Shown here: positions 2,743-23,820 of the stretch, in pieces
Position numbering within the stretch: position 1 is the stretch's first letter
Layout: each line of letters begins with the position of its first letter
The notes under the pieces: generated by a model
The model's input: the letters and a program-made list of their open reading frames with translations, nothing else
The model's database searches: none
What the model was told of the DNA's origin: nothing
Made by a program: the position numbers and the translations under genes
Assembly: GCF_002208135.1 (NCBI RefSeq)
Contig: NZ_CP021646.1
Span: 2,234,001 to 2,298,000 of the forward strand
From: Pseudoalteromonas piscicida
Lineage (GTDB): Bacteria; Pseudomonadota; Gammaproteobacteria; Enterobacterales; Alteromonadaceae
Length of the DNA: 64,000 nt
Direction: 5' to 3'

Positions 2743-3318
2743 TTAACGCCGAGCAATACGCTTTTGCTTGGTTAAGTATGCCCCGCATAATCCGCTTAAA
2801 AACCCAAAAATATGGCTTGAACTACTCGTCTGCGCCGAAAAATCAAATAACGTCGCTAAAAAGCTAATATTGGCATAGTAAGTCAATACCAGCAGAGCTA
2901 TAAAACTAACAATGCCAAGCACATCGCGATTGAATAGTGCAGCACCCAGCAGTAAGCCAAAATACCCCATCACAATGCCTGATGCACCAATGTGATTAGC
3001 ATGCCCAGCAAACAGCCAAACCAACAGCCCTGTAGCAACCACAATAAAAAAAGTAGCTCGCTTAAACCTTGGTAATCTTGCAGCCAAATAGCCGCTAATA
3101 CTTAAGCCGAGCAAATTACTCAGCAAATGCCCCCAACTACCATGCACAAAAGGCGCGGTTAACACACCACTCAAATGATGCACATTATGCGGTACAATCC
3201 CAAAACGATAGACGGGTAAGCCAAAAATCCCCCCCAACACCTGTACGAGGCACATCACCGCCATCGCGTACAAAACCAACTTAAAATTGGGCGGAAAAAC
3301 CAGTGCACGTTTACTCAT
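2743..3318 (-). CDS. Rhomboid family intramembrane serine protease
   Basis: This is a 191-residue membrane protein with about six hydrophobic segments. It carries the rhomboid catalytic pair: GASG with Ser about 113 (HIGASGIVMGYFG) and His about 169 in the last membrane helix (SSSHIFGFLSG). A conserved H-x2-x3-N type segment (HGSWGHLLSNLLGL) lies in TM2. The ATG at 3318 is preferred over an upstream in-frame start at 3429 because GGAAG sits 4-5 bases before it and because the longer version would read through a terminator hairpin at 3336-3365. Rhomboids cleave transmembrane substrates within the bilayer. The partner is unknown, and no rhombosortase-type GlyGly partner is visible nearby. Confidence 0.88.
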   Translation of the reverse strand: MSKRALVFPPNFKLVLYAMAVMCLVQVLGGIFGLPVYRFGIVPHNVHHLSGVLTAPFVHGSWGHLLSNLLGLSISGYLAARLPRFKRATFFIVVATGLLVWLFAGHANHIGASGIVMGYFGLLLGAALFNRDVLGIVSFIALLVLTYYANISFLATLFDFSAQTSSSSHIFGFLSGLCGAYLTKQKRIARR

Positions 3319-3335
3319 CTTACTTCCATATACAG

Positions 3336-3365
3336 ACAAAAATAGCGCCTTATTAAGCGCTATTT
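3336..3365 (-). terminator. Rho-independent terminator after the DUF3592 gene
   Basis: Read on the minus strand, a 9 bp stem (AAATAGCGC/GCGCTATTT) with an 8-base loop is followed by a run of U. It lies between the DUF3592 stop and the rhomboid start, so the two genes are probably separate transcription units. Confidence 0.7.
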
Positions 3366-3443
3366 CGAATAGATTTGCAAACTCAGCCCACGTGAACTTT
3401 ACATACTTAGTGTTGTAGTTACGATCCATCCACTTTCATAAGA

Positions 3444-4724: not shown

Positions 4725-4796
4725 ATGAAAAAGCGTAATATAATCCCATGTTTCGCAGCTGCCCTATTGATTTCGGCGTGCTCGAGTTCAACATAA
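4725..4796 (+). CDS. Tiny lipoprotein-like ORF (23 aa), possibly truncated
   Basis: A good ribosome site (AAAGGAAA, about six bases upstream) precedes an ATG. It opens a lipoprotein signal peptide (MKKRNIIPCFAAALLISACS) with a consensus lipobox LISAC, and the frame stops only four codons after the lipobox cysteine. The mature product would be just CSSST. This is either a real very small lipoprotein, comparable in size to lysis- or entericidin-like peptides, or a lipoprotein gene beheaded by the integration event: the stop codon lies three bases from the left 21 bp repeat. No conserved family is recognised. Confidence 0.4.
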   Translation: MKKRNIIPCFAAALLISACSSST

Positions 4797-4799
4797 AAA

Positions 4800-4820
4800 T
4801 AGAACGGCATCTTAAAGCCT
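4800..4820. repeat. Left copy of 21 bp direct repeat (candidate att site)
   Basis: It matches 19 of 21 bases of the 3' end of ybaB (17973-17993), in the same orientation. Read on the minus strand it would still encode Gly-Phe-Lys-Met-Pro-Phe, the YbaB C terminus, with two synonymous changes. The similarity stops abruptly on both sides. This is the pattern left when an element integrates site-specifically at a gene's 3' end. Confidence 0.7.
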
Positions 4821-4955: not shown

Positions 4956-7900
4956 TTATGAAGCAAGCTTTGTCTTAGTTTTCTTAGAATGAACTAGAGG
5001 TGACAGATTTACCACCAACTTATACTTAATGTTTTCAATTTCTTCATCTGTAAAGCTTCTTTCTAAAAGGTTGTCTATTAATTCTTCTTGTCTTGGCTGC
5101 CCAAATGCTAAGCGATATAGCGAAAGCACCTTCAAAGATTCATTTAACTTGATTAAGTCCTTACTCATTGGCATCAAAGGCACAATGCGCTCTATTTGAG
5201 CACTACCTGAAGACAAGTGCCAATATGGTTCCAAATCACTAAGCCTTTCGTTTTTTGTGTGTTGATCAGCGTACTCAAACAACTTATCCCAAGAGTGTTG
5301 GTAGCTTGAGTTAACTTCATCTTTAAACCTTTCTACAAGTCGCCTACGAACAACTAACGATTTATAGCGGTTTACACGACCTTCTCGCTGTTCAAGGTCG
5401 ATTGGGTTTGATGGCAAGTTCCAATGAACTATACGACTGCAATACCAATGAAAATCTAGCCCTTCCTGCCCAATAGATGTTGAATTCAGCACAAAGGGCC
5501 TAAACGGTGAGTTAAACGCATCACGAACATGAGACACCCTAACCATACCTTTTTCATCCGTCATTTTTTGGTTACCAAGAGGAACAGCATAATGGCATCT
5601 TAACGTGGACTTTTCTCCTAACGAACCTTCACTCTTCTTGAGGGCAATATCTTCGTGAAAATGACAACCTACAGAAACCGTGTTTGTACTTAACACACTG
5701 TTTAATTTTGATAACGCTTCGCTACTATTTTGCCCAGAGCCAATCAATAAATGAAAATACTCATCAACCACCGCTTGTAAGTTACCGTCTGCGCAATATT
5801 GGATAACGGCTTGCCAATAAGGTGCTTTGTAATAGCGTTTTTTAATCGCTCTTTCTGACTCAGGTTTATTAAACAAACTTACAAAGCCCAATGCGCTCTC
5901 ACTTATATCAACTAAGTGATTATGTGAATCTTGACCTGCTAACGAACGAACGATGCATACAGCAGGGCCTGAAATTGCAAGTTGCGCCAAATAGTTAAAA
6001 AGGTCTTTAGGGAGTTTTCCTAACTCACCTCCTTCAATCAAATCAAATAAGTGCCGGATACTATCTAAGCGACCTTTATTTCTGCCATCGGATAACCTGT
6101 TTTCAAAATCAACCTGCCAGTCATCTACGTCATTTTGGTATCCATTTAACATATCTAAAAGTAGTGGCGCTACGGCATACCAATGTGTTTTAGACTTCTT
6201 TCCTTTGTTTTCATAGGACTTGAGCTTTGCCCAAAACTGGCTTTTAATCTTTTTGCTCACATCGTTTACAAGCTCATCGAGAGTTTTACCATCATAAGAA
6301 AACTCAATATTTGCCAGTGTTCGACTAGGGTAAATGTAAGACCATGCAACAAGGTTTGACTTACCATCAAATCTAATCTTAGGTACATGCTCTTTTGATC
6401 GATAATACTCCTTAGTTACGCCTCTTCTACCTTCAAGCAATCTGCGTTCAGCTTCATAAGATATCAAACCGCTTAGCGCCCTTGGCACCATTGCCCATGC
6501 AGAGAACAACAACGACTTACTAAAACCTTGTTGATTTTTAAAACTTCCTTCTAACGGGTAATACGGATTTGACGGCGGAACCCACAGCAATTCTTCGCCA
6601 TTGCCGTCAAAAAAAGTATCAAGCACAGCCTTGAACCTTGCGTTCGAACCTTGCTTAGCCAAATTTAATTTATATGACTGGATTAAATCTCGTGACAGCC
6701 AACTCATTTTCGACTGTTTTATTGCCTTTGATATAGGTGCGTGTTTTTGTAATGAATCATCAATATGATTTTTAAATTGATAGCCATTCATAAATGACAA
6801 AGCCCAAGGGGCCGACTTTTGGTACTCTAATAAGTAGCTTGAATGACTTTTCTTATTAACCTTATTCAGCTCTTCTGCTATTTGAACTAACTCTTTAAAT
6901 GCCAGAATTTCATTTCCATCAAACTTTGCTAAACATTCAGTAGCTTGTTCACTGCCTTTTCTAAAGCAAACTATTGAGTCTGCCTTATCGACGATCTGTG
7001 CTCGCTCTGTGCGGCATATGTATGAACTAAGTGAGTTTTCAATATTGTCCTTATGAGTTGAAATCAAACTGCTTGGGCATTTACTCGGATCACGCAGGCT
7101 AATAATTTCGCTATGAAGCTTCTCCCTGTTGTATTCATATTGACTTAAAAAGTTATGATCTTTTTTACTTAAAAAATTAAGTAAATACCTTAATTCATCA
7201 ACATGAGCGGTTTGGGTTTCTTCTTCATCCACTTTAGACATAGCTTTAAATGGCGTAGCTGAGAGCAATAATAATTTAGCTGCCGACTCTTTAGAAAAAA
7301 TCCCTCTGGCAATAACTGATAATTCATTGTCTTCATTGGTGTCGAGAAGGCTATTAAACCTCTGAAACTCATCTAATATAAATAAATCAGACTTTAGGTT
7401 TTGAACACAGCACCTAGCAAGCACTCTCCTCAAATAAGAGCGCAATCTATTTGGGTGTTCACACTTAACTTGATCAGTGCAAACCATTTCAATAATTGAG
7501 AGGCAGCTACTATCTTGCGCTATCTCCCAGTCACTTTCGATATAGTCTGATTGAGCGTTAAGTTGTTGATGAAACGAGTGTAATACACATTTATCAAGCG
7601 TTTTATTTTTGTCGAACCAATCTTGATTGCTCTCCCAAGTGTTACTACTACAATAGCCTCGAAACAACTTACTTAGCTTACGTTTATACTTTGATAAACT
7701 GTCATGTTTACAAAGCAATTGATAAATAATAAAGCGTTCCCAGTGAGTGCCATCCCCCTGAGTTAGAGTAAATGAGGTAGAGGGGGTGAGGGAGCAGACT
7801 TCTAATAATTTATTAGCGTCATTATCATTTTGGCTATCCTTTATAGCTAATTCAGTCAAACGGCTAAATGAAGGCTCTGATACATATTTTTCGTGCTCAG

Positions 7901-8195
7901 TCCCATCAAATACAGCTAGTTTCCTTATATTTTCATTAGCAAGTGTTAGGTTAGAGCAGATATACGTTACCCTTAAAGGCTTAAAAGGTGATTGATTCAA
8001 CCTTGCTTTGAGCATTTCAGCTATTACACCTTTTGCAACAACGGTTTTACCTAAGCCAACCTCATCGGCAACTAATACTCTTCCTGAGTGACCACTATCG
8101 ACAAAATTGCTCATCACTTGGTGCACGGTTGCTAATTGAAAATCTTTGAGTTTCGAAAGCGACTGGTTCAATAACGCTATTACGTCATCACTCAT
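4956..8195 (-). CDS. SNF2/DEAD-like superfamily 2 helicase of a defence cassette
   Basis: This 1079-residue protein has a complete SF2 ATPase core: Walker A ADEVGLGKT (Lys about 50), a Walker B variant LDEFQ (Asp about 275) in place of DEAD/DEAH, motif III LLSATPFK (Ser about 312), and a late motif VI QREGRVNRYKS (about 936-943) preceded by STSIGQEGLD. The DEVGLGKT form and N-terminal placement resemble SNF2-like translocases. About 600 residues lie between the two ATPase lobes, an unusually long insertion with no recognised domain. It is the last gene of the cassette, and its start overlaps the stop of the PLD gene by eight bases (ATGAGTGA), implying translational coupling. It probably moves along DNA or remodels it so that the PLD partner can act. 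It is not DrmA of DISARM as far as I can see, since no DUF1998 partner is present. Confidence 0.85.
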   Translation of the reverse strand: MSDDVIALLNQSLSKLKDFQLATVHQVMSNFVDSGHSGRVLVADEVGLGKTVVAKGVIAEMLKARLNQSPFKPLRVTYICSNLTLANENIRKLAVFDGTEHEKYVSEPSFSRLTELAIKDSQNDNDANKLLEVCSLTPSTSFTLTQGDGTHWERFIIYQLLCKHDSLSKYKRKLSKLFRGYCSSNTWESNQDWFDKNKTLDKCVLHSFHQQLNAQSDYIESDWEIAQDSSCLSIIEMVCTDQVKCEHPNRLRSYLRRVLARCCVQNLKSDLFILDEFQRFNSLLDTNEDNELSVIARGIFSKESAAKLLLLSATPFKAMSKVDEEETQTAHVDELRYLLNFLSKKDHNFLSQYEYNREKLHSEIISLRDPSKCPSSLISTHKDNIENSLSSYICRTERAQIVDKADSIVCFRKGSEQATECLAKFDGNEILAFKELVQIAEELNKVNKKSHSSYLLEYQKSAPWALSFMNGYQFKNHIDDSLQKHAPISKAIKQSKMSWLSRDLIQSYKLNLAKQGSNARFKAVLDTFFDGNGEELLWVPPSNPYYPLEGSFKNQQGFSKSLLFSAWAMVPRALSGLISYEAERRLLEGRRGVTKEYYRSKEHVPKIRFDGKSNLVAWSYIYPSRTLANIEFSYDGKTLDELVNDVSKKIKSQFWAKLKSYENKGKKSKTHWYAVAPLLLDMLNGYQNDVDDWQVDFENRLSDGRNKGRLDSIRHLFDLIEGGELGKLPKDLFNYLAQLAISGPAVCIVRSLAGQDSHNHLVDISESALGFVSLFNKPESERAIKKRYYKAPYWQAVIQYCADGNLQAVVDEYFHLLIGSGQNSSEALSKLNSVLSTNTVSVGCHFHEDIALKKSEGSLGEKSTLRCHYAVPLGNQKMTDEKGMVRVSHVRDAFNSPFRPFVLNSTSIGQEGLDFHWYCSRIVHWNLPSNPIDLEQREGRVNRYKSLVVRRRLVERFKDEVNSSYQHSWDKLFEYADQHTKNERLSDLEPYWHLSSGSAQIERIVPLMPMSKDLIKLNESLKVLSLYRLAFGQPRQEELIDNLLERSFTDEEIENIKYKLVVNLSPLVHSKKTKTKLAS

Positions 8196-10029
8196 ATATC
8201 ACCTCTTGTTCAAAATGCTTCCATAGTGACAAAAATTGCTCTGGGATTTGAACTTCTGTTTGCTCTAATCTCTCAAGTAAAGCTTGAATTCTATTGAGTG
8301 CTGACGGGTTGCGAGCTGCGGCTAACATTAACTGTTCATATATCGGTGCACTTTCAAATAGGCTCGCACCGCTACCGTCACTTAATCCAGCTGCTCTTGT
8401 TGTAATATCAAGCCACTCTTCTTTAGTGCTATAAGGATTTAATAATAGCCGGACGTAGTTCAGTAATTTATCTTCATTATCTAGCAACTCAGACAAAACC
8501 CTTTTATCGCGAGTATCGCCACCCTCAATATGAAGGTTTGCTTGTATAATTAGGCTCTTTTGCTGTGAGTCACTTTCACATTTAGACGTCAAACACACAG
8601 GTATCAACGCGCTAATAGCGCTCAACTCAACACCCGACCAATAAAGCTCAGATGATATAGACTTATTTGCACCAGCAATACCTAACTGGCCTATCTCAAT
8701 ATCACAAAGGGCTAAAATGTGAGTCAAAGACTCATCGTCGATATTATGAGACAGAGTTAACTCATACAGTTCGGTTTTATCATTGTATCGAGCCTCCAAT
8801 TGCCAATCCGCATTAATAATAGGAAAAGATACCTTTCTGAAGTCAAAATCTTTCGATTCCGCTTCATTTTGTAGGGTTGAAAACTCATGCGGCACGATCA
8901 AGCCTTCGCCTTCTTTATCACTTAGCCATGTCTCTAAAATACGTTGTGGGCCGATTTGAGCTGTGTTGCCCGTAAACCTCAGCATGAATTCTTCATTTCT
9001 AGGTGGTTTTTTCTCTGTACCAAGTGCGGCGGTTGTGGCATTTGCCGACCCTAAATGCCAATGGCTTGTGCCACCGCGTTGAGTGATCATAAGCTTGGCA
9101 TGAAGATCATGGGATTCTTCCGGTAATCCAGCTCGTTCTGCACCATCAACAATGGCGTCATTTATTGAGTAACACTGCCAAGATTTTAATTTTTCTTGCC
9201 CAATTTCGTTTAGCTCAGTAGCGCGACTGACTAACATTCTTTTAGTGTCAGGTGCTTTAGTCTCCAACCAATCAAGTGCTTTCACTTGTCCTGCTGAATC
9301 TTTTATAAAAGGTGAAACAACCAGTATTGAGTCATTGCTATTGTGTAAATCAAGTGGTTTATTAAACTTGCCACCACCTGGTAATAACAATGGATTACGC
9401 CCATAACTTATCGACCAGCTAATTTTAGGAAGCTCTTTTTTGAAGGTCTTTTTTAGTTCAGCGTCATTCTGTTCATTAAGCAGGTTGAGGAAAAAATCAG
9501 CCCAGCTTTTGGTGCCCAATTCCGTTACCTTAGTATTCGTTAATTTCCCATCAAGCGAAGCTGCTAAATCCCAACTTCTGTCAAAGGTAAGGTTGCGAGA
9601 TAAAACAATAAGTCGATAAATTACATTAGCTCTCTTTTTTCCACCTGATTCTTTATAGCGAATTAACCATACTTTAGGATGAAAGGAAGCGTGCTCTCCA
9701 CCACTTGGCACTACCGCCCTTAAACACGGCTCCAATAGTGTGAACAACTTGTTGTACTGCGTTGGAACTTTAATATTACCCTTTTGATAAAAAACACGAA
9801 GTCGTCCTTTTAATTGCCCAAATGCTTCTAATAACGCTAGTTTCTCACCTCGGAGATCGCCCTCAAGTGTTTCATTAAAACAAAGTGCGATAGGGGCAGC
9901 TAATAATGTGTCTAAATCTAGTGAATATGTTGTCGCAATAGCGGCATCAAACTCATATTGCACACCATCAATAAAGGGAGGTGTTAACTGCTCACCATAG
10001 TCAACGCGGTTTTCATCTGCTTTTAGCAT
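8188..10029 (-). CDS. Phospholipase D-fold (HKD) nuclease-like protein of a defence cassette
   Basis: The 613-residue protein has two HxK elements typical of the PLD superfamily. One is HPK at about 117-119 (ASFHPKVWLI); the other is HAK at about 310-312, followed by GSANATTAA (about 327-335), which gives the canonical HxK-x(n)-GS-N. The first element is flanked by VLSRNLT, a common PLD feature. In defence loci such proteins are usually nucleases. The C-terminal 250 residues are not recognised. The ATG overlaps the end of the DUF6361 gene by 17 bases, and its own end overlaps the helicase start. Nuclease rather than lipase activity is inferred from context. Confidence 0.8.
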   Translation of the reverse strand: MLKADENRVDYGEQLTPPFIDGVQYEFDAAIATTYSLDLDTLLAAPIALCFNETLEGDLRGEKLALLEAFGQLKGRLRVFYQKGNIKVPTQYNKLFTLLEPCLRAVVPSGGEHASFHPKVWLIRYKESGGKKRANVIYRLIVLSRNLTFDRSWDLAASLDGKLTNTKVTELGTKSWADFFLNLLNEQNDAELKKTFKKELPKISWSISYGRNPLLLPGGGKFNKPLDLHNSNDSILVVSPFIKDSAGQVKALDWLETKAPDTKRMLVSRATELNEIGQEKLKSWQCYSINDAIVDGAERAGLPEESHDLHAKLMITQRGGTSHWHLGSANATTAALGTEKKPPRNEEFMLRFTGNTAQIGPQRILETWLSDKEGEGLIVPHEFSTLQNEAESKDFDFRKVSFPIINADWQLEARYNDKTELYELTLSHNIDDESLTHILALCDIEIGQLGIAGANKSISSELYWSGVELSAISALIPVCLTSKCESDSQQKSLIIQANLHIEGGDTRDKRVLSELLDNEDKLLNYVRLLLNPYSTKEEWLDITTRAAGLSDGSGASLFESAPIYEQLMLAAARNPSALNRIQALLERLEQTEVQIPEQFLSLWKHFEQEVIYE

Positions 10030-11251
10030 TTTCTAATCCTTGTTGTATATCGGCTAAAATTGGTCGCGCTGCGCTCCATCTGTAATCCAATCGCTGAATT
10101 CCAACCCAAGCTTGATGAGTAAGCTTTTTGTATAATAACGAGCGTTTCTTTTTGTTATTTTTAGCCTGGCTTTCAACCAAAGTAGCTATTTCTTTGAGAG
10201 AAGCGCCTGTTTGCACTTGCTTGATGAATTCTTGAATAAAAGTCTTTGTTTTAGGCTTGATTGCTTTAATTTCAGCAATATCTAACCAGTTATCTACACT
10301 GTCTTTATGTAAGGATTTTTTAGCTATTTCAGCCCAATTATTATAATCACTTTCGTACTCAGCTACTTTTTCATCAAACCCGTTGTTTTTAGCCAGCACA
10401 ATATTATATCGAAGGTGTGCACCTTCCATTGCTAAGCTGAAAGCTTCAGCGGCATCAAGCCTTGATTTGCATATAGCAGAAACCTTATCCTGCTTTTTTA
10501 AAAAAGCTTGAAGCTGGGTAAACCCACTTACAAATTTATCATTTAAATTCAAGGCTTCATCCGTTAAGCCATGTAAGTAAAGTTGCCCAAGCACACTGTG
10601 CTCTAAATTTTTAGCATTCTTAATTTTATTAACTAAAAACTTAGCTTCATCAGCACTTAAATTTAATGTGAGGTCTTCTTGCCAGTTAGCTAAGTGGCCT
10701 TTGGGTAAATGAACTATCTGCTTGGTGTTAAGGCTGCTGGTATCATCTTCACCAAACTCGCTTATCGCTGAATCTGGTTTAGTTTTAACAGTGCCATAGT
10801 GCCTGCAGAATTCGGCTAAAGAACTTTGTGTGTCGATAATGCCAAGTTGCCTCAACCCATTCCAGTAAACAGAAGACGGCCTTCTGGCAACGCCTCCCTT
10901 ATCGATTTGGGTGCGGCCAATAATGCCTGTTTCGTCATCGCCATGAACTTCAGTCAACCGCTTTGCTACGTTGTTTTCTGCGTCTTTCAAATAAGACTCT
11001 ATAGGAGGCGCTTTCCGTTTATTGGCGGAGCACTGCTCATAATAATCGCGTAAAATACGTGGAACCGTAATAAAATACTTGGCACGGGTTTGAATGGTAG
11101 AAATACCAGGAAATAGCAAGTCAGCAAAAGCGTCTCTAATTTGTCCTATACCTAATTCATCTAAGGTTCCAGGCTCTCGCATCATCGCCATCACGTGCCT
11201 GACCCTTTCCCTGTCTTCTGAGGAAAAATCAACCCATCCTAAATCACTCAC
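10013..11251 (-). CDS. DUF6361 family protein of a defence cassette
   Basis: The 412-residue protein opens with a GTG in the overlap TAGTG with the upstream 39-codon ORF. The N terminus (LGWVDFSSEDRERV, then DELGIGQIRDAFADLLFPG and STIQTRAKYFITVPRI) matches what I recall of the DUF6361 family, which is often found beside PLD-domain and helicase genes. No catalytic motif is apparent. Basic and hydrophobic residues are spread through the middle, and the C-terminal region is Lys-rich and helical. A DNA-binding or sensor role for the cassette is possible but is inference only. The family name is from memory and should be verified. Confidence 0.7.
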   Translation of the reverse strand: MSDLGWVDFSSEDRERVRHVMAMMREPGTLDELGIGQIRDAFADLLFPGISTIQTRAKYFITVPRILRDYYEQCSANKRKAPPIESYLKDAENNVAKRLTEVHGDDETGIIGRTQIDKGGVARRPSSVYWNGLRQLGIIDTQSSLAEFCRHYGTVKTKPDSAISEFGEDDTSSLNTKQIVHLPKGHLANWQEDLTLNLSADEAKFLVNKIKNAKNLEHSVLGQLYLHGLTDEALNLNDKFVSGFTQLQAFLKKQDKVSAICKSRLDAAEAFSLAMEGAHLRYNIVLAKNNGFDEKVAEYESDYNNWAEIAKKSLHKDSVDNWLDIAEIKAIKPKTKTFIQEFIKQVQTGASLKEIATLVESQAKNNKKKRSLLYKKLTHQAWVGIQRLDYRWSAARPILADIQQGLENAKSR

Positions 11252-11370
11252 TATTTATCCTTATTTTTGTTTTGTTGTGTTTTCTTCCATGCTTGAGCAA
11301 TAACCACTTCATCAGTTAAATAATCCAAGGAAGGTTTTAGTGCACGATATTTTTCGTTAATAAGTTTCAT
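11251..11370 (-). CDS. 39-residue ORF between hsdS and the DUF6361 gene
   Basis: It has a ribosome site AAGGA seven bases before ATG 11370. The frame ends with a TAG that overlaps the GTG of the next gene by one base, so the two are translationally coupled. The product starts MKLINEKYRALKPSLDYLTD and ends in a very Lys/Asn-rich tail. The first 30 residues remind me of the N terminus of longer proteins from defence loci (an EVVIAQAWKKT-type segment), so it may be a truncated remnant kept as a leader peptide. That similarity is uncertain. Confidence 0.5.
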   Translation of the reverse strand: MKLINEKYRALKPSLDYLTDEVVIAQAWKKTQQNKNKDK

Positions 11371-11393
11371 TTAACGTCCTTGTTACTATTCGG

Positions 11394-13148
11394 CTAGTTT
11401 ACTAATGAAGATGATATTGAATCTGCAAGGTTCTTTTGGATGAGTTTCGCTTTATCAATTTTAGTTTTCAACTCTTCACAAGCTAAGAATAAATCTTCAA
11501 CCTTACTTATAATTCTTCTTTGCTCATTAAGTGGTGGAATTGGAAAGATTAATGCCTTAAGTATTTTTTGATTAAGAAACAATCTAGTAGTGCCTGCGCA
11601 CATATCTTTAATTTTGTTCAATACCATCTCACTCCCCTTGAAAGTAAAACAAAAAAATTCAGGGTCAATAAGCTCTTTTAAAAGTGTTACACGTAGCAAA
11701 TTGGTTGAAATTAGTCCGTCTTCCGTTTCATCTGGTATTACACACACCTCATCGATTGTTCCTGAACGGGAAATTATTAAGTCGCCACGAGTAGCATTAA
11801 AAGAACTAAGCTCTTCGGCTTTTTTACTATCTACAAAAATCTTATTAACACCAGTAAATTTTCCATTTTTTATAGTTTCTATCCCCCAAACAGGTATCCC
11901 ACTTAATTTGTGCTCACTTTTTTTCAGCGCTGAACCAAACGGCCCAGTTATCATACCTTTGCGAGTGTGATCTAGGAGTTGTTCTATGTTACAAAAAGAC
12001 CAACCTGATGGAAGCTCAAAAGGCTCGTTTTTAGTATCGCTCTTAGGTAACACCTTTTTACTATTAAAGAACTGCTCATTATTTTTTGACATTCTTGCTA
12101 GTAAAGTTGAAGCAGGTTCGTCATTAGGGTCTTGTTTTACTAATTTACCCATCACGGCGAGTTGCAGGATGGTTTGTTTTAGTTGGTCGATGCTGTCTTC
12201 GGTAGTGAATAAGGTGTCGAAGTGTTCGCTGATGCGCTGCCAGCTTTCGTTTAGCTCATCAGCGTCTTTGGCGTTGGTAAGCGTTGCTAATAATGTTTCA
12301 ACGAGTATTTTATGCGCTTCAATATTTGATTCAGTCTGAGATTCAAGTTGATCGCAAAGAGCCATTAATTTTTCTACTTGGTTTACGATTCTTGACTGCT
12401 CTTGCGGCACACAAAAAGGTATGACAGCTAATCTAGCCTTATCTGTGCCCATTCTAGGAAGGTTCATCCCATGCGTTGATTCATTAGCATATAAAATAAA
12501 CTGGGGAGATTTCATAACCAATCTAAGAAAAGATGGAAGGATGTGTTTATATCCACGAAGGGGGATCATTTCAGTTGTACAAACGCCAGGCTCATCCGTA
12601 ACTATAACTTTGTCTAAATAAGGTCGGAGCTTACCATAAACTACATCCCCAGACTCAAATACACTCTTAGAGCTTTTAAACTTTCTTTCTGAAAATCTAA
12701 CTTTTTTAATAAGTTTAGAGGTTACTTTTTCAACGTCTTCAAGTTCAAGAACCCATGTGTTTTCATTTACATCGTTAGCTTCAACTTTTAATGAAAGTCC
12801 GTAACTTGTTACATCACCGAGTCTTACCCATGCCCAGCTTTTAGGAATAGAATATGGATACTCTTCATTTGCTATTTGAGGTAACGACTTTTGTTTTTTG
12901 ATTCTTTTTTCTTTAATTAGCCTAGATTTCTCTTCTTGAATCTCATTTATAAGCTCGCTGATAGGTACAGTATCAGGTTCTTGCTGTATGAGCTTTCCTC
13001 GCAGAGCTAGCTCAATTATCAGCTCTCTAAGTTTTTTGATCCCATAAAGCTCAAGCTTGTTTGAGCTACCTCTGCCAGAAGCTGATTTGGTCTTAATTGC
13101 CGATGTCCAAACATCGAGATTTTCGGTAATAACGCTTTCTACAGACAT
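11394..13148 (-). CDS. hsdS: Type I restriction-modification specificity subunit HsdS
   Basis: The 584-residue protein has two target recognition domains separated by helical spacers, the standard HsdS build. The first is introduced by YPYSIPKSWAWVRLGDV and ends in CVPQEQSRIVNQVEKLMALCDQLE. The second starts at FELPSGWSFCNIEQLL and ends in PIPPLNEQRRIISKVEDLF. Both terminal spacers have the conserved PxxEQxRI motif. HsdS sets the bipartite DNA sequence recognised by the complex. Its ATG overlaps the hsdM stop (TAATG). It is somewhat longer than average because of an N-terminal extension of about 90 residues rich in charged helices. Confidence 0.93.
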   Translation of the reverse strand: MSVESVITENLDVWTSAIKTKSASGRGSSNKLELYGIKKLRELIIELALRGKLIQQEPDTVPISELINEIQEEKSRLIKEKRIKKQKSLPQIANEEYPYSIPKSWAWVRLGDVTSYGLSLKVEANDVNENTWVLELEDVEKVTSKLIKKVRFSERKFKSSKSVFESGDVVYGKLRPYLDKVIVTDEPGVCTTEMIPLRGYKHILPSFLRLVMKSPQFILYANESTHGMNLPRMGTDKARLAVIPFCVPQEQSRIVNQVEKLMALCDQLESQTESNIEAHKILVETLLATLTNAKDADELNESWQRISEHFDTLFTTEDSIDQLKQTILQLAVMGKLVKQDPNDEPASTLLARMSKNNEQFFNSKKVLPKSDTKNEPFELPSGWSFCNIEQLLDHTRKGMITGPFGSALKKSEHKLSGIPVWGIETIKNGKFTGVNKIFVDSKKAEELSSFNATRGDLIISRSGTIDEVCVIPDETEDGLISTNLLRVTLLKELIDPEFFCFTFKGSEMVLNKIKDMCAGTTRLFLNQKILKALIFPIPPLNEQRRIISKVEDLFLACEELKTKIDKAKLIQKNLADSISSSLVN

Positions 13149-14848
13149 TAAGCTTTACCCTCATCATTTGTTGAAAGAACATTTGCTAGAATGCCTTTTA
13201 ATTGGTCACGTAGTTGCTGAATATCTTTTTGCTGTGTTTGATATTGCTCAAGCAGTTCATCTGGATCGTGGCTCACTTGTTCACCAACATGTGGGTTTTT
13301 AATGTCAAAATTAAAAATGGCATTAAAAATAGCATCACCTTGGGCTTGCTCGGCATTGGTACGTTTTAAAAGCTCTTCACGTTGAGCTTTTAGCGAATCT
13401 ACTTTTTCTTTTAGTAGTTTCTTGGCTTTTTCGTCTATGCCAGTATCAGGTGACTTAAGCGAATCAATTTCGGCTTTAACCTTTTCAGCTTCTGCCTTGG
13501 TATTTTCTGCTTTGTCCCAATGAGGTTTGGCATCTGCTTCCGCTGCTTTACGTTTGGCGACAAAATCGACTTTCCAAGCTTGTTCATTTTCAACACGACT
13601 GGCAAAACCATCACTTTCTTCACCCCACCACTGAATTTCTGTTTCAAATTCTTCAAACTTCATTGGCTTGGTTTTAGAGTAGTTTTTAACGCCTTCTGGG
13701 TATGGGTGCTCGTAGAACCATATATCTTTTGTTGGCTGGCCTTTAGTGAAAAATAGGATGTTGGTTTTAATACCTGTATACGGGTTAAATACGCCGTTAG
13801 GTAACCTTAAAATAGTGTGAAGATTACATTCTTCCGTTAATAGCTTTTTGATTTTGGTTTTAACACCCTCACCAAATAATGTGCCATCGGGTAATACTAC
13901 TGCTGCTCGGCCACCATCTTTTAACACTTCTACAATGAGCTGTAAGAATAAGTCTGCCGTTTCACGGGTTTGCATTTCCGCAGGGAAGTTCTTTTCAATA
14001 CCGTCTTCTTCAGTACCACCAAATGGTGGATTGGTGACGATAACATCGAAATCACTGTCCCAGCTTGAAAGTGGTTTGTTTAAGGTATTGCCATGCTTAA
14101 CTTGCACAGGTACTTCGATTCCGTGCAGCATCATGTTGGTTGTGGCTAATAAATGCGGCAGTTGTTTCTTTTCGACACCATGAATTTGGCTTTGCAGCGT
14201 TTTATGATCAGCACCTGTTTTCACATAGTTATTTTTTACGTGATCCACCGAGCAAGCAAGGAAACCACCCGTACCACAAGCTGGGTCGAATACTTGCTCG
14301 CCTAACTTAGGATCAATACGATTTACCATAAAGCGTGTTACCGCACGCGGGGTATAGAATTCCCCTGCATTACCTGCGCTTTGTAAATCTCGTAATATTT
14401 GCTCGTAGATATCACCGAATAAATGACGTTCTTTAGAGTCGGTAAAGTCTACTTCATTGAGTTTATTGATGACTTGGCGCAATAACGTACCGTTTTTCAT
14501 GTAGTTAAATGCGTCCGAGAATGCTTCTCTAACAACGAAACCACGTGGATTTTTATCAATTGGTGCTGTTAAGTTTTTTAACGTTGGGAATAAATCGTCA
14601 TTAATAAATTCAAGTAATTCGTCACCTGTAATGCCTTCAGAGTCAGCCGCCCAGTTACGCCATAGGTATTGCTCTGGAATTGGCTCGCGATAGTCATCTA
14701 ATTCAAATTCAAGCTCTTCTTCTTGTGCGTCGAAAATCTTTAAGAAAAGTAGCCAAGATAATTGGCCTAAACGTTGTGCATCACCATCAACACCCGCATC
14801 TTTGCGCATGATGTCTTGAATCGATTTTATAACTGTACTAATTGACAT
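13148..14848 (-). CDS. hsdM: Type I restriction-modification methyltransferase subunit HsdM
   Basis: This is a 566-residue N6-adenine methyltransferase. The SAM-binding motif DPACGTGGF is at about 188-196 and the catalytic NPPF at about 273-276. It has the N-terminal HsdM helical domain (LFLKIFDAQEEE), the FYTPRAVTRFMV segment before motif I, and a long coiled-coil region (about 430-520) ahead of the C terminus. It modifies the host's sites and forms the M2S core with HsdS. It lies 82 bases downstream of hsdR and is coupled to hsdS by a one-base overlap. Confidence 0.95.
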   Translation of the reverse strand: MSISTVIKSIQDIMRKDAGVDGDAQRLGQLSWLLFLKIFDAQEEELEFELDDYREPIPEQYLWRNWAADSEGITGDELLEFINDDLFPTLKNLTAPIDKNPRGFVVREAFSDAFNYMKNGTLLRQVINKLNEVDFTDSKERHLFGDIYEQILRDLQSAGNAGEFYTPRAVTRFMVNRIDPKLGEQVFDPACGTGGFLACSVDHVKNNYVKTGADHKTLQSQIHGVEKKQLPHLLATTNMMLHGIEVPVQVKHGNTLNKPLSSWDSDFDVIVTNPPFGGTEEDGIEKNFPAEMQTRETADLFLQLIVEVLKDGGRAAVVLPDGTLFGEGVKTKIKKLLTEECNLHTILRLPNGVFNPYTGIKTNILFFTKGQPTKDIWFYEHPYPEGVKNYSKTKPMKFEEFETEIQWWGEESDGFASRVENEQAWKVDFVAKRKAAEADAKPHWDKAENTKAEAEKVKAEIDSLKSPDTGIDEKAKKLLKEKVDSLKAQREELLKRTNAEQAQGDAIFNAIFNFDIKNPHVGEQVSHDPDELLEQYQTQQKDIQQLRDQLKGILANVLSTNDEGKA

Positions 14849-14930
14849 TAAATTGTGTTCTCTAATTTTGTGTTGCTAGCTAACTGAATACCTTTTAAGC
14901 CTTTGTAAGGCAACACTTTAATATTTAGTG

Positions 14931-17384
14931 TTAAGCTTGTTTTTCAGGTATAGCTTCGTAAATTGCTTTTTCTAATTCGGTAATTGCCGCTTCATATTGC
15001 TTTGCTCCGCCGAAGCCTTTTTTGGCTAGTTCTAACGGGCGGCCAAGCTCCACCACTTTTCCTGTTTTAAGGGCATCTTTACTTTCTATGGCTGCAACGC
15101 CTTCATCACTGTACTTGTTTAACAGTTCGTTAAGGACGGTTTGGGCTAGGTCGCCATATTTGGTGAAGTAATTGCGCTTTTTAACATTGTTTGCGCGTTC
15201 TTTGCGCGTTAGAGGCGGTTGGTCGAAAACGACGTGGCAGATCATATCAAATGGGTCTAATTCTTTCCCCACTTCTTGCTCTAAAACTTCCCAAATAATG
15301 CCTTCAGCTGCAAGTTCGTCGATAATAGCTTGTTTGCGCTCGGCTTCATCCCAGCGTTTTACAAACTCATCAAGGGAACTAAAGGTTTTAGTGAGAGTTT
15401 TACGTGTGTAATCTTTAAAAGATTCTGTAACGAGCTTGCCGTCTTCATCATAATATTGAACACGTTCACCCAGTTTTTTAACCGAAACGCCATTGACGTG
15501 ATATTTATTGACCTTTTGTTCTTCTTCGCCCCAATCATCACCGTCGATTTCACCTGATGGATAATCGGTTTCAACGTCATCTGAAGATGGATCATAATCG
15601 GCATCTGATTCTCCAATTCCGTTGAGTTCATCACCAATGGTTAGTTCTGTATCTTCAATCACATCATCAAAGTCTGATTCGGGATCGTTAATATCATCAG
15701 CTTTTGTTGTTATTACTTTTTCTGGAATACCGTCGAATCGTGCGTCGGCAAATAGTTCAGTGGCTTTCTTAAAATCTAAGATGGTAAACCAGAGCTTGCC
15801 AAATCGATCATCTATGCGAGTGCCGCGCCCAATGATCTGTTTGAACTTAGTCATAGACTGAATGTTTTGATCAAGTACAACTAGCTTACAGGTTTTAGCA
15901 TCAACACCTGTTGTCATTAATTCAGAGGTAGTAGCAATAACAGGGTAAGGCTTTTTAGGGTTAATAAAGTTGTCTAGCTGTGCTTTACCAATTGCGTCAT
16001 CGCCTGTGATTTTCATCACATACTTATCGTTTTTAGCCACTTGCTCTGGATTACAGTTCACAAGTGCTCGGCGCATTCGCTCGGCGTGATCTATGTCGTT
16101 ACAAAACACGATGGTTTTAGACATAGGATCAGTTCGTTTGAGGTAATTGGTGATGGTTTCTGCCACTAACTGCGTGCGCTCATCTATTATCATTGTACGG
16201 TCAAAATCTTTTTGGTTATAGATACGGTCTTCAATTACATGGCCGTTTTTATCGACCATACCCTTAGTTGGTCGCCAACCTTGTAGATCGACATCTATAT
16301 CAACACGAACCACTTTATATGGCGCTAAAAACCCATCTTCAATACCTTGTTTTAATGAATATTGATAAACAGGCTCGCCAAAGTAATCGATGTTAGATAC
16401 TTCGTCAGTCTCTTTTGGTGTTGCCGTAAGACCAACTTGGGTCGCTGAGTTGAAGTATTCGAGTATTTCTCGCCAGGCGCTATCTTCTGATGCACTACCT
16501 CTGTGGCATTCGTCGATGATGATGAGGTCAAAGAAATTTGGGTCAACTTGCTTGTATGCTTTTTGGCTTTCTTCAGGGCCTGTTAGTGCTTGGTATAGTG
16601 CTAAATGAACTTCGTATGCAGGGTCTACTTTTCTGCCTGTGATTTTAGTCATCGCTTGACCAAAAGGCTGAAAGTCATTGATACGAGTTTGATCAACTAA
16701 TACATTTCTATCAGCTAAAAACAAAATTCGTTTTTTGGCTTTTGCTTTCCATAAACGCCAGATAATTTGAAAAGCCGTATAGGTTTTACCCGTGCCTGTT
16801 GCCATGACCAATAAAATACGGTCTTGGCCTGATGATACAGCTTCAACTGTTTTGTTTATCGCTTGTAGCTGATAGTAACGCAGAGATTTTCCTGAGCCAT
16901 CATCATAATAGTCTTGAGTGATAAGTGGAAGCTGCTCCTCTGTGTATCCTTTGTAAACACAATATTTCTCCCAAAGCTCTGCTGGAGAAGGAAACTCATC
17001 TAAGGTAATTTCTGTTTCTAGCCGTGTCAAATTAGTTTTATCATGAAATATAAACCCATCACCATTACTAGCAAAAACAAAGGGAACATCTAGTAAATTA
17101 GCGTAATCTAAACCCTGCTGCATCCCCTTACCAATCTCATGTTTATTAGCTTTAGCTTCAATAACAGCTAACGGCATACTAGGTTTATGGTAAAGAACAA
17201 TATCTGCTGACTTAACAGATTTTCGACCAGCTACAGTGCCGCGTACAACCACTTTGCCATCTCGAAGCTTCACTTCTTGACGTATTTGCGTCATATCATT
17301 CCAACCAGCTTCTTTGATAGCAGGCATAATGTACTTGGTGATGATATCGGTTTCGCTGAGTGACTTTTTGTTCATTGGGTTCAT
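14931..17384 (-). CDS. hsdR: Type I restriction endonuclease subunit HsdR
   Basis: This 817-residue ATP-dependent restriction subunit starts with a PD-(D/E)xK nuclease domain (Asp 61 in ADIVLY; Glu 77 and Lys 79 in AVIEAKANK). The SF2 motor follows with Walker [10 protein letters not shown] (Lys 200), IIIDECH (Asp 291), LTATPKE (about 320) and late motif [10 protein letters not shown]. An acidic stretch around 600-650 ([16 protein letters not shown] region) precedes the C-terminal helical domain that docks on HsdM. It is the first gene of the seven-gene run, so the promoter of the whole block should lie in 17385-17574. A second in-frame ATG three codons in is an equally possible start. Confidence 0.95.
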
Positions 17385-17574
17385 ACGTGTTTTTACTTCC
17401 TTTTTAAATCATGTGGGAATAAGTATTCTTTATCATGAAGTTAAGCATGAGCACATGTTTTAATGATCTTGCATCCAAGCACTAGTAGACGTCTAACAAC
17501 TACGTAAGTGCTTTCAAAAGCTAGCATTTTTGAGGTGATTTGTCAGCAACCTGACGTTAACAAAGGTAATTTTC
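17385..17574. other. AT-rich leader between hsdR and a decayed small gene
   Basis: The segment probably holds the promoter of the hsdR-to-helicase operon on the minus strand. GGAAG lies ten bases before the hsdR ATG, but I cannot place a convincing -35/-10 pair. Nothing else is seen. Confidence 0.35.
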
Positions 17575-17802
17575 ATTGGGTTATTTAGCTTCTTGTTTGG
17601 TTCTGACGACTCAGTTTCTAATAGTGAGCCAACTGTAAATGTAGATGGCTCACCAATGTGTTGCAGTGTTGATATCAATGGAAACCCATATGGAGTGACG
17701 TCCACAGACGATGGTATTGATCACAACTCGTGCTTTGATAATGATTTTTCTAGTTAGGATACCTTTGATGATTCAAGTTGTGGCGGGTTTGATGATTGGT
17801 AG
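17575..17802 (+). pseudogene. Decayed gene for a small Ser/Asp-rich protein
   Basis: An open frame reads GLFSFLFGSDDSVSNSEP, then a GNPYG motif, then an Asp/Ser-rich tail, with a ribosome site (AAAGG) at the right distance from an ATT where an ATG would be expected. After 60 codons a TAG (17755-17757) interrupts it, yet the same frame continues in the same Asp/Ser/Gly style for 14 codons (DTFDDSSCGGFDDW) to a second stop. The pattern fits a small accessory protein of the GLFxFLFG type that has lost its start codon and acquired a nonsense mutation. Use of ATT as a genuine start cannot be excluded. It lies inside the putative integrated element, opposite in direction to the restriction genes. 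Confidence 0.55.
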
Positions 17803-17930
17803 GTGAAGCATAATCATAATTTATTTTTTATTTGTAAGATGACTTCAGTAATGCTTGAGTTATGGGACACCTAATGTGCGTCTAAATATGTGTAACAATG
17901 ATGACAGATACAATTGAGTTTTTTAAACAA

Positions 17931-17958
17931 AAAAATAGCGCCTGAAGGCGCTATTTTT
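17931..17958. terminator. Perfect bidirectional terminator downstream of ybaB
   Basis: A 12 bp perfect stem (AAAAATAGCGCC/GGCGCTATTTTT) with a TGAA loop lies 14 bases after the ybaB stop. Read from ybaB it ends in a U run, so apt-dnaX-ybaB transcription stops here and does not reach recR or the restriction genes. Confidence 0.9.
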
Positions 17959-17971
17959 ATGGAATTCTAAA

Positions 17972-18298
17972 TTAGAACGGCATTTTGAAGCCTGGAGGCA
18001 TTTGCATGCCGCCGGTGACTTCTGACATGCGCTTTTGCGTTTCTTCACCTACGCGACGAACTGCATCGTTTACCGCAGCGGCTAGTAAGTCTTCAATCAT
18101 GTCTTTGTCGTCTTCCATTAGGCTTTCGTCGATTTCTACGCGACGTACGTTGTGGCTACCAAGCATAGTTACTTTAACTAAACCTGCGCCTGCTTCACCT
18201 GTTACTTCTAGGCTCTTTATCTCTTCTTGGGCTTTTTCCATGCGCTCTTGCATTTGCTGCGCCTGCTTCATGATGTTGCCCATTCCGCCTTTAAACAT
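17972..18298 (-). CDS. ybaB: Nucleoid-associated protein YbaB/EbfC
   Basis: This 108-residue DNA-binding protein of the YbaB/EbfC family acts as a homodimer on the nucleoid. The typical features are present: the N-terminal [20 protein letters not shown] helix, the [19 protein letters not shown] strand pair, and a Gly/Met/Pro-rich tail ending GFKMPF. It lies 63 bases downstream of dnaX, as in most proteobacteria. Its last seven codons form one copy of the 21 bp direct repeat. The terminator directly after it separates it from its usual partner recR, now 17.6 kb away. Confidence 0.95.
17973..17993. repeat. Right copy of 21 bp direct repeat (3' end of ybaB)
   Basis: This copy is the functional ybaB 3' end. 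Its partner at 4800-4820 differs at two positions, both silent in the ybaB frame. Together they bracket 13.2 kb. Confidence 0.7.
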
Positions 18299-21669: not shown

Positions 21670-22419
21670 TTAAAGGGTTTTTGTTTTGATAATGCCAAGA
21701 TCCGCGAATTCAGCTAGTGTGTGCTGTGCACCTTGCTGCAGCTGCTCAACAGTAAATTGGGGCACTTGCTGCGCGATAATATCCACAATGTCAGTGAGTT
21801 GCATACCATCTTTGGCTTCAATCACCGACAACATTAGGGCCGTCATCGGATTTAGTGCGACAAATTGAACATCGTCCTCTTCGTCTCTATACAGTGCAAA
21901 GCTAAACGTTTGCCCTGCTGTTTTAGTTGGCCTAAAGGTTTCACTGATCTGATGAACCGGATATTGATAATGTGCAACTCTAGCTGTACTTGCCAAGCTA
22001 ATTTCAACATCTGCAAGCGCTTGTACTTTAATCGAAAGTTCATTTTTTGCTTCAATGGTCGTTGCCACATCTAGCTCTAGCCATTCATAGTGAGCAAGCT
22101 CTAACAAGAACTCAGGATCGGCTTCTGAGGGCTCGTATTCTGTTTGTAAAAACTGCAAGAACTCTTTGCTAATCTCTAAAAAGTATGGCGAATGACAATC
22201 GTGCTTAACGAAAAATAGCCTAATTAGCGTCAACCAATCTGCATTGGTATACAAGCTTTTAAGTACAGGAAACGCACTGCTCACGAAACCTTCAACATTA
22301 TTAAAAAACAGCTCTTGATAGATTTTTAAGCGCCGAGCTTCTATGCCGTCAGGCGCTGGTTGATTGTCTGGATCTCTGATATGCGCCATAAACTGCTGCT
22401 GAGTTTCTACAAAAGACAT
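21670..22419 (-). CDS. hvfC: HvfC/BufC-type RiPP partner protein (DUF2063)
   Basis: The 249-residue protein has an N-terminal DUF2063 domain (QQFMAHIRDP near the start, then the RLKIYQELFFNNVEGFVSSAFPVL-type segment) and a C-terminal winged-helix-like part (LADVEISLAS... VPQFTVEQLQQGAQHTL). In characterised systems this partner recruits the precursor peptide to the HvfB oxidative enzyme. The gene lies three bases after hvfB, in the usual hvfA-hvfB-hvfC order. It is annotated from family knowledge and context; the hvfD (DoxX-like) gene often found next is absent. Confidence 0.85.
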   Translation of the reverse strand: MSFVETQQQFMAHIRDPDNQPAPDGIEARRLKIYQELFFNNVEGFVSSAFPVLKSLYTNADWLTLIRLFFVKHDCHSPYFLEISKEFLQFLQTEYEPSEADPEFLLELAHYEWLELDVATTIEAKNELSIKVQALADVEISLASTARVAHYQYPVHQISETFRPTKTAGQTFSFALYRDEEDDVQFVALNPMTALMLSVIEAKDGMQLTDIVDIIAQQVPQFTVEQLQQGAQHTLAEFADLGIIKTKTL

Positions 22420-22421
22420 AG

Positions 22422-23258
22422 CTATACCTTCTCCAAGCGCTTGGCGTATTTAGCCTGTACTGCAGAAATTTGTCCCGCTTCTGCCAATAATTCTGCCATG
22501 GGAGGAATATTAAAATCACGCTCTAGCAATGTCGGGAACACACCATGCAGCTCATAAGCTTTCTCTAACAAGCCCCATACTGGTGAAGATACCTCAGCGC
22601 CATGTGTATCAACGAGTAAGTCTTCGGCTTCCACATAATGACCTGCGATATGGCCGTATGCAATACGCTCGCTTGGCATAGCCGCTAAGAATTGTTCAGC
22701 ATCGTAGCCATGGTTAATAGCGTTGACATAGATGTTGTTAACATCGAGTAGCAAATCACAATCGGCCTCGGCTAATACCCCAAGGGTAAATTCCAACTCC
22801 GACATTTCTTGTCCAGGAGCGGCATAGTAAGACACATTTTCTACAGCAATTCGGCGTTCTAGATGCTCTTGGACTGCTCGGATCCGCTTAGCAGTATGAT
22901 GGATTGCTTCTTCAGTAAAAGGGATTGGCATCAGATCGTACATGTGACCATCTCCTGAACAGTAACTCAGATGTTCACTATACGTAGCGATATTATGTTG
23001 CTTAAAAAATGTTTTTAGTTGTGATAAAAATTCACGATCAAGCGGTGCGGGAGAACCCAGCGACAATGACAAGCCATGACAAATAAAAGTATGCTGTTGC
23101 GTCAATGCTTGAAATTGCTTTGCAAGCTTGCCGCCAAATTTTAACCAGTTTTCTGGCGCAACCTCATAAAAGTCTACTTGCTTTGGCGGCGCATTGAGCA
23201 CGTCATCGACCATTTCACGGCGTAAACCAAGTCCTAGCTTGCCTAACTGCATTGCCAT
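22422..23258 (-). CDS. hvfB: HvfB/BufB-type multinuclear non-heme iron oxidative enzyme (MNIO, formerly DUF692)
   Basis: The 278-residue TIM-barrel enzyme belongs to the MNIO family, which modifies cysteines of copper-binding RiPP precursors using a multi-iron centre. Metal-ligand segments are visible: FYEVAPENW near residue 30, [11 protein letters not shown] near 58, YSEHLSY near 93, AVENVSYY near 140, [12 protein letters not shown] near 172, [12 protein letters not shown] near 200 and DTHGAEV near 216. In HvfABC systems EGKCG cysteines become oxazolone/thioamide copper ligands. The gene starts 154 bases after the precursor gene, with a strong hairpin in between. Confidence 0.92.
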
Positions 23259-23294
23259 ACTTCTCTCACTTTAGACATTATTTAACACTAATCA

Positions 23295-23333
23295 GAAGCT
23301 CGCATGGTACAGGTTGCCTGTCTGCGCAGCTTC
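23295..23333. promoter_or_regulatory. Strong stem-loop between hvfA and hvfB
   Basis: Nested pairing is seen: GAAGCT with AGCTTC, CGCA with TGCG, and inner ACAGG with CCTGT around a 3-base loop. No U run follows on the minus strand, so this is more likely an mRNA processing, stabilising or leaky attenuating element than a full terminator. It would favour excess precursor over enzyme. Confidence 0.55.
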
Positions 23334-23412
23334 GCTTTGGAATTACCCAATAGCGTTATTTACCTTAACATAGATAGCTGTGCTAATGGGTCAATCACAA
23401 CAGTGTCTTTAG

Positions 23413-23820
23413 TTAGTGGTTACCACCACATTTACCTTCGCCGCACTTACCTTCTTTTTTACTTTTTGCATGGCCACCACATTTGCCTTCACCGCACTTA
23501 CCTTCTTTTTTGCCTTTGGCATCGCCACCACATTTGCCTTCGCCGCACTTACCTTCTTTTTTGCCTTTGGCATCGCCACCACATTTGCCTTCGCCGCACT
23601 TACCTTCTTTTTTGCCTTTGGCGTCACCACCACATTTTCCTTCGCCGCACTTACCTTCTTTTTTGCCTTTGGCGTCGCCACCACATTTACCTTCGCCGCA
23701 CTTACCTTCTTTTTTGCCTTTGGCGTCGCCACCACATTTACCTTCGCCGCATTTGCCTTCTTTTTTACCTTTGGTGTCGCCACCACATTTACCTTCGCCA
23801 CACTTACCTTCACCTGCGTC
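23413..23820. repeat. Eight tandem 51 bp repeats within hvfA
   Basis: The repeats code for the 17-residue EGKCG units. They differ mostly at silent positions, and the first and last units have diverged spacers (GDTKGKK; GHAKSKK and GGNH), which is consistent with growth of the central copies by unequal recombination. Several long open frames in other phases and on the plus strand here are by-products of the repeat. Confidence 0.95.

Follow-up and report, generated by a model that had tools for sequence, protein, structure and literature searches.

An Azaca anti-phage trio as probable cargo of a 3' slot in a type I restriction operon of Pseudoalteromonas piscicida

What is the three-gene cassette that runs on from a type I restriction operon in Pseudoalteromonas piscicida, and how did it come to lie there? 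Operon and cassette occupy positions 4956 to 17384 of a stretch of 64,000 nucleotides (hereafter the window; positions 2,234,001 to 2,298,000 of contig NZ_CP021646.1, assembly GCF_002208135.1), which belongs to a genome of 5.3 Mb in two contigs. We propose, with a probability of about 0.82, that the cassette is the anti-phage system Azaca (ZacABC) and that it is the cargo now occupying a 3'-terminal slot of an hsdRMS operon of the EcoAI/FtnUII type. The proposal starts from what can be read directly at this locus and its relatives: the identity of the trio, its gene order, its catalytic motifs, the stub of a DRT1 gene before zacA, and other cargo in the same place in related operons.

The trio consists of a DUF6361 protein, a protein of the PLD superfamily and a superfamily 2 (SF2) helicase. 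A preliminary description of the locus, made from the letters alone, rightly saw a defence cassette of this composition behind a type I restriction operon, but it knew of no well-established system made up of precisely these three proteins. That statement was wrong. All three have full-length PADLOC matches to the Azaca proteins (Table 1), that of ZacA spanning residues 2–407 and that of ZacC covering model positions 7–1017 of 1019, and zacA, zacB and zacC are adjacent and in this order. Since the trio matches a named system, an outcome that the description itself had said would remove the novelty, the claim of novelty falls and the candidate of a new three-gene system is rejected. The cassette is Azaca, and by homology this copy would be expected to protect its host from phages; its identity is settled and a false claim of novelty is removed. 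Of the profile searches that had been suggested, those for DUF6361 (Pfam) and Azaca (PADLOC) gave matches, whereas the window's PLD protein had none in Pfam at E 0.1.

The suggested survey of neighbourhoods bears out the co-occurrence of the three genes, with and without type I genes beside them. Among the best 80 of 168 places in named genomes, ZacA was found in 80, ZacB in 79, ZacC in 73 and all three in 72, and the order A-B-C on one strand holds in each of the 72 loci with a complete trio. Six of the seven loci without ZacC have the trio cut by a contig end, and the one without ZacB (L031) appears degraded. The window's ZacA is at most about 50% identical to the ZacA proteins of these 80 loci; closer proteins (up to 94%) occur in Pseudoalteromonas and in metagenomes, the nearest named relatives being those of Pseudoalteromonas strain GCY (94%) and P. 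phenolica (78%). Millman et al. 2022 is reportedly the source that later papers cite for Azaca. Such papers give ZacC as the Azaca helicase (PMC12278908) and a PLD-like domain for the system (PMC10952713), and a 2026 review places Azaca among the systems whose mechanism is unknown (PMC12926258).

The motifs of the three proteins suggest how the system may work. ZacB contains two HxK/N half-sites, H117/K119/N146 and H310/K312/N330, which are kept in 46 of 46 aligned relatives; PLDc_2 is matched in 26 of these 46 and RE_NgoFVII in 14, neither of them in the window's protein. A ZacB profile matches R.NgoVII (E 5.5e-5) and, weakly, the nuclease NucT (E 0.0028). In ZacC, LDEFQ lies at residues 274–278, SATP at 312–315 and the C-terminal lobe at about 892, about 580 residues after SATP. 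The LDEFQ Walker B and an insert of some 600 residues had earlier been called odd; both features are present, but they are normal for ZacC. DEVGxGKT, DEFQ and SATP are invariant in 57 of 57 aligned relatives, so the unusual Walker B is a family trait, and the last motif (936–943) is kept in 55 to 57 of the 57, depending on the residue. A ZacC profile matches RapA, an SNF2-type translocase (E 2.8e-6, residues 35–61 only), and partial matches to DpdE and DrmD agree with this likeness. Residues of ZacA that are invariant in 76 of 76 proteins include D31, E32, G34, R39, F47, P48 and G49. We infer a translocase-nuclease complex in which ZacC would act as DNA translocase, ZacB would be a PLD-type nuclease akin to the NgoVII restriction enzyme, and ZacA would serve as adaptor or sensor; such a complex could find and cut invading DNA with no need of the neighbouring type I enzyme.

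Could the locus instead be a new system of the DISARM type? DISARM sets a PLD protein and an SNF2-type helicase beside a methylase, as is also the case here, and ZacC has short helicase stretches in common with DrmD and DpdE (partial matches, 61 bits each). However, ZacC reaches 946 bits with its own model as against 62 or less with any other, matches to DrmA and DrmD are weak, partial and confined to the helicase, the protein families are different, the methylase is HsdM, and DUF1998 (DrmB) is absent from the Pfam hits of the six proteins of the block. DISARM or another DUF1998 system is therefore rejected, as the preliminary description had already judged for DISARM, and the chance of a DISARM-like novelty is close to nil.

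How Azaca came to follow hsdS is indicated by a short open reading frame (ORF) of 39 codons between the two. The coordinates, lengths and overlaps given earlier were exact (17 bases between zacA and zacB, 8 between zacB and zacC, and one between the stop of the small ORF and the start of zacA), and the run is co-directional as described; it had been counted as seven genes with the small ORF as a member of a tightly coupled unit. The latter is not borne out: the ORF is a gene remnant, and the number of intact co-directional genes, all on the minus strand, is therefore six. Over its first 32 residues the ORF shares 91% identity with the beginning of a protein of 1233 residues that is encoded in another genome of the order (L091) and matches Drt1a at 1477 bits. 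Of DRT1, a UG1 reverse transcriptase-nitrilase, the window thus keeps the first 32 codons, and the rest is absent from window and genome alike: a Drt1a model search of the genome matched this ORF only (model positions 1–28, E 5.2e-5), and a full reverse transcriptase-nitrilase gene was found nowhere in it. Such a DRT1 start occurs in 3 of 295 genomes of the order, this one included, and in one plasmid record. In L091 the whole DRT1 gene begins 21 bp behind the hsdS of a kindred type I operon, whose products are 86% (HsdR), 93% (HsdM, residues 1–427) and 41% (HsdS) identical to those of the window; two further loci, L090 and L092, have DRT1 without such an operon.

In a sister genome (G072) a stop follows codon 25 of the small ORF, and the surroundings of the zacA start are conserved. 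From the DRT1 homology and this early stop it follows that the ORF is a scar and that its one-base overlap with zacA is not kept, and the ORF is rejected as a gene. That overlap could point to a functional leader peptide coupling translation of hsdS to that of zacA, which we regard as very unlikely for an ORF that is the start of DRT1 and is cut short in the sister beside a conserved zacA start. We propose that Azaca replaced DRT1 by recombination, with a breakpoint that would lie about 32 codons into drt1. What sets this copy of Azaca apart is that it follows a DRT1 stub where a type I operon ends, and the one locus shows a possible turnover of defence, the stub being kept before the Azaca start behind the same restriction operon.

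The operon itself is intact: hsdR, hsdM and hsdS are adjacent, and full-length matches to REase_I, MTase_I and Specificity_I were obtained with PADLOC. One transcript from hsdR to zacC is plausible, in which case a promoter before hsdR would serve the cargo too; a scan of the stretch gave nine terminator-like sites as against 10.2 expected, which is not above chance. The sister genome has a transposase-like gene inserted in hsdS, yet its zacA and zacB are open, as is the part of zacC covered. Between window and sister, the ratio of nonsynonymous to synonymous substitution rates (dN/dS) is 0.18 for zacA, 0.12 for zacB and 0.15 for zacC, values that also include the time before the interruption of hsdS. 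As a side observation, the hsdS recognition regions differ in sequence in the sister (L086, 11285–14202), and the transposase-like gene lies in the second half of hsdS and is, by eye, of the IS3 type.

Is Azaca one of several occupants of this place? Among 394 genomes of the order there were 48 HsdR matches, and we read the DNA downstream of the 30 best, chosen by HsdR score alone (the window's operon, that of genome G322 and 28 others; the remaining 18 were left out). Besides window and sister, hsdS is recognisable in 27 operons, one of which (L152) is cut off, leaving 26 that can be evaluated; L144, L150 and L152 cannot. In 20 of the 26 the run of genes behind hsdS includes a defence gene recognised by PADLOC, of nine kinds: DRT1 (L091, L141), a UG5-nitrilase reverse transcriptase (L140, L149), GmrSD-type genes (L130, L131, matching part of the model only and supported by Pfam in L130), PDC-S11 (L127, L128, L129, L139, L143, L147), a PtuA-like ATPase (L134, L146, L148), DarT with a macro-domain gene beside it (L135), AbiD (L137), PDC-M04 (L138, L145) and a MkoC-like gene, again matching part of the model only (L142). 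The match is the second or third gene behind hsdS in L127, L128, L138, L145 and L149, and in L129 it lies beyond an insertion in hsdS. Gene clustering alone adds a PDC-S11-like gene for L137, a GmrSD-like pair for L134 and, for L145, a macro-domain gene resembling that beside DarT in L135. With Azaca there are ten kinds: Azaca, DRT1, UG5, GmrSD pairs, PDC-S11, PtuA-like, DarT with its macro-domain gene, AbiD, PDC-M04 and MkoC-like. In the window, Azaca has the look of one cargo among several that can be exchanged in a 3' slot. Behind hsdS of L126 and L151, the first gene lies on the opposite strand. Co-directional slot genes without a clear PADLOC match among those scanned were noted in L125, L132, L133 and L136.

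The alternative is an ordinary defence-island neighbourhood, in which Azaca would merely adjoin a restriction operon and no special slot would exist. Defence genes do cluster in general, and in six further Azaca loci of the class type I genes lie upstream in one only (L207, with three genes between). The packing of the genes argues the other way: a co-directional gene follows hsdS within 200 bp in 25 of 29 operons, and within 50 bp in 20 of them, as against 8 of 29 with such a gene within 200 bp before hsdR (genes of at least 90 amino acids behind hsdS; window, sister and L152 are counted among the 29, and for two of the operons the stretch contains nothing upstream of hsdR). So does the finding of PADLOC cargo in 20 of 26 operons that were picked by HsdR score and nothing else. 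As a 5' control, the nearest upstream genes gave a PADLOC match in 2 of 10, one of them weak; this control is small, and its reach was narrower than that of the 3' search, its 10 genes being a non-random choice from 27 available, one per operon, whereas the 3' search took in up to three genes or those beyond an insertion. On balance, we consider the mere island neighbourhood unlikely. That EcoAI/FtnUII-type hsdRMS operons of this order have a dedicated 3' slot, where defence modules of at least ten kinds would interchange under one promoter by stub-leaving recombination, seems to us rather likely. If so, the cargos without a model match (L125, L132/L133, L136) would make promising candidates for new defence systems, and if the slot is general, the genes behind hsdS offer a cheap, targeted route to such systems and bear on the frequent passengers of type I operons.

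Does Azaca also keep company with type I enzymes elsewhere? The family is patchily distributed: in the genus, 2 of 108 genomes carry ZacA, and in the order 4 of 394 do (both counts include the present genome, and one of the four was found only at E 2.3e-5), and ZacB exceeds 400 bits in 7 of 369 genomes of the class, again including this one, with weak matches only in 59 more, in a search in which 5 of 14 control genomes also gave matches. ZacB matches 38 PLSDB plasmid records, 22 of them over at least 80% of its length; on a Cronobacter plasmid the trio neighbours an integrase, and the stretch read has no annotated restriction gene. A phage collection gave one partial Azaca match, and viral contigs, searched with a single protein and so only for close relatives, gave none. 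On the plasmid p2 of Caballeronia sp. Lep1P3 (L093), the zacB-like and helicase genes are full-length, and next to them DUF6361 is annotated only as a short piece.

A co-directional type I gene lies within 2.5 kb of the zac genes in 13 of 79 loci, or 12 if L030 is dropped; many stretches are short, and the 13 is therefore a lower bound. These loci span Pseudomonadota, Bacteroidota and Bacillota. HsdR or its end directly precedes zacA in L037, L040, L041, L043, L073, L076 and L077, and one gene intervenes in L068 and L081; zacABC lies inside a type I gene set in L036, and type I genes follow zacC in L026 and L069. On plasmid pHALHY01 the order is hsdM-hsdS-zacABC-hypothetical-hsdR. Five loci (L001, L002, L083–L085) were excluded from this neighbour survey as too short. 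L030, with a 196-residue HsdM-like piece of 81 bits, was removed from the loci bearing the type I label, and L043, with a 216-residue HsdR piece, also of 81 bits, was kept because only 12 bp separate the end of the piece from a zacA identical to the one in L041, where HsdR is whole; L035, whose full type I operon lies on the other strand, was counted as lacking one. L021 fell outside the ZacA cluster through gene picking, and the ZacA of L031 (217 residues) was too short for the tree. On the ZacA tree of 79 rows, where 12 loci and the window bear the type I label, the label changes 10 times, at least nine by the starred branches, a number as low as which arose in 14 of 500 shuffles; this weak clustering of the label is a further point in favour of a plain island neighbourhood. 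The partnership of Azaca and type I genes is thus recurrent and not obligatory. Another recurrent partner appears to be an AddAB-like pair, seen by gene clustering with a Pfam basis from L006 only: a gene clustering with a UvrD-type helicase that has a PD-(D/E)XK domain directly precedes zacA in L004, L006, L015 and L038, and in the last three a gene clustering with a PD-(D/E)XK protein precedes that helicase gene.

Such recurrence raises the possibility that Azaca and the type I enzyme function together as a single supersystem, with Azaca acting as a PrrC-like back-up when the enzyme is inhibited or cutting DNA handled by HsdR. The spread of the association over three phyla with its ten changes on the tree, and the placing of zacABC within type I genes on pHALHY01 and in L036, fit this idea, for which PrrC is a published precedent (PMC12707154). 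In Vibrio cholerae, according to PMC11411939, the GmrSD-type pair TgvAB lies within a type I restriction-modification operon, and tgvAB alone was 10- to 100-fold less protective against several phages than the five-gene cluster. The authors of that paper, however, suspect the artificial promoter as the cause of the weaker protection; the module does not need the restriction activity of HsdR, the protection pattern being similar after a catalytic hsdR mutation. Furthermore, 66 or 67 of the 79 loci have no such type I neighbour in the stretch, many stretches being short; nine other kinds of cargo occupy the same slot; and the sister combines open zac genes with an interrupted hsdS. We therefore regard a supersystem as decidedly unlikely and prefer Azaca as an exchangeable cargo.

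How much of this has been described before? DarTG2 is embedded in a type I restriction-modification operon together with the regulator RptR (PMC12255303). As here, a defence module is carried by a type I operon; unlike here, it lies between hsdS and hsdR, and no TAGCTA repeat (the RptR site) was found at 17385–17975, upstream of the window's operon, so RptR-type control is rejected. TgvAB is likewise a defence module in a type I operon, differing from the window's in cargo and position, and PMC11411939 describes GmrSD homologues as frequent in type I loci. GmrSD-type pairs also occur in the slot of the present lineage, in L130 and, partly by clustering, in L131 and L134. Single defence modules inside type I operons are thus already published. 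A preprint by Payne et al. on embedded defences, which these papers reportedly cite, may cover part of the slot idea. In open-licence papers (bioRxiv not included), we found neither Azaca as type I cargo, nor a DRT1 stub before Azaca, nor an exchangeable 3' slot; searches there for DUF6361, and for type I restriction with DRT1 and operon, returned nothing, the letters Azaca occur in 28 papers, in many of them with an unrelated sense, and none of the best-matching 6 of 139 papers mentions Azaca along with type I restriction and hsdS.

Several observations weigh against Azaca as the current cargo of such a slot, or against the workings proposed for it. Recognised cargo is absent in 6 of the 26 evaluable operons (L125, L126, L132, L133, L136, L151), and the limits of the 5' control and of the dN/dS values given above count here as well. 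A scan found no promoter-like site between hsdR and ybaB, the gene on the other side. No 3' remnant of DRT1 was found within the window, and no two close relatives were seen that would represent the stages before and after an exchange of DRT1 for Azaca. The suggested mechanism draws on homology: the likeness of ZacC to RapA is confined to the Walker A region, and ZacA has no convincing relative in the PDB by sequence (best E 0.034).

Table 1. The hsd-zac block and its borders, in positions of the window.
Feature	Position	Strand	Description
hsdR	14931-17384	-	817 aa, EcoAI/FtnUII family; NF046051 1174 bits (cut-off 550)
hsdM	13148-14848	-	566 aa; PADLOC MTase_I 884 bits; N6_Mtase E 2.7e-86
hsdS	11394-13148	-	584 aa; PADLOC Specificity_I 596 bits; Pfam Methylase_S
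39-codon ORF	11251-11370	-	remnant of the 5' end of drt1a (reverse transcriptase-nitrilase); codons 1-32 (11275-11370) homologous
zacA, DUF6361 protein	10013-11251	-	412 aa, GTG start; PADLOC PDLC03828 340 bits; PF19888 E 2e-29
zacB, PLD-superfamily nuclease (predicted)	8188-10029	-	613 aa; PADLOC PDLC03829 477 bits, residues 1-608
zacC, SF2 helicase-translocase (predicted)	4956-8195	-	1079 aa; PADLOC PDLC03830 946 bits, residues 10-1067
Terminator-like hairpin	17931-17958	-	behind ybaB, between ybaB and hsdR; 12 pairs (5 G-C), then T-rich
ybaB 3' end, right copy of 21-bp direct repeat	17973-17993	+	
Left copy of the ybaB 3'-end repeat	4800-4820	+	just beyond zacC; 2 mismatches

Where did the block enter the chromosome? 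The hsd-zac block alone is bracketed by the 21-bp repeat of the ybaB 3' end (Table 1), for which 0.01 matches were expected in shuffles, the pattern having been chosen after the likeness was seen. The repeat fits a probable insertion of the block at the end of ybaB; no integrase was found among the Pfam hits of the block. A short lipoprotein-like ORF start at 4726–4797 (plus strand) stops just before the left repeat and is perhaps a gene stub.

In 20 loci of the genus (L153–L172, own included), recR, as assigned by its sequence, begins within 10 bp of ybaB in 10 and within 80 bp in 2; it follows after another gene in 4 (L155, L156, L157, L159) and is not within 1.5 kb of ybaB in 4 (L153, the window's own L154, L158, L164). 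In the window a recR-like stretch lies at about 1–350, which puts about 17.6 kb between it and ybaB. With at least 0.75 kb of other DNA between the two genes, or no recR within 1.5 kb, in 8 of the 20 loci, the junction of ybaB and recR is a hotspot for insertions in this genus. L155 and L156 contain, between ybaB and recR, a stretch like the window's rhomboid gene (2743–3429).

Finally, we note a further cluster on the minus strand of the window. A small protein at 23413–23997 is encoded with 7.6 copies of a 51-bp repeat giving units of the EGKCGEGKCGG type, and beside it lie genes for an MbnB/TglH/ChrH-type enzyme (22422–23258) and a DUF2063 protein (21670–22419). This cluster (21670–23997) looks like a putative one for copper-binding ribosomally synthesized and post-translationally modified peptides of the bufferin/oxazolin type.

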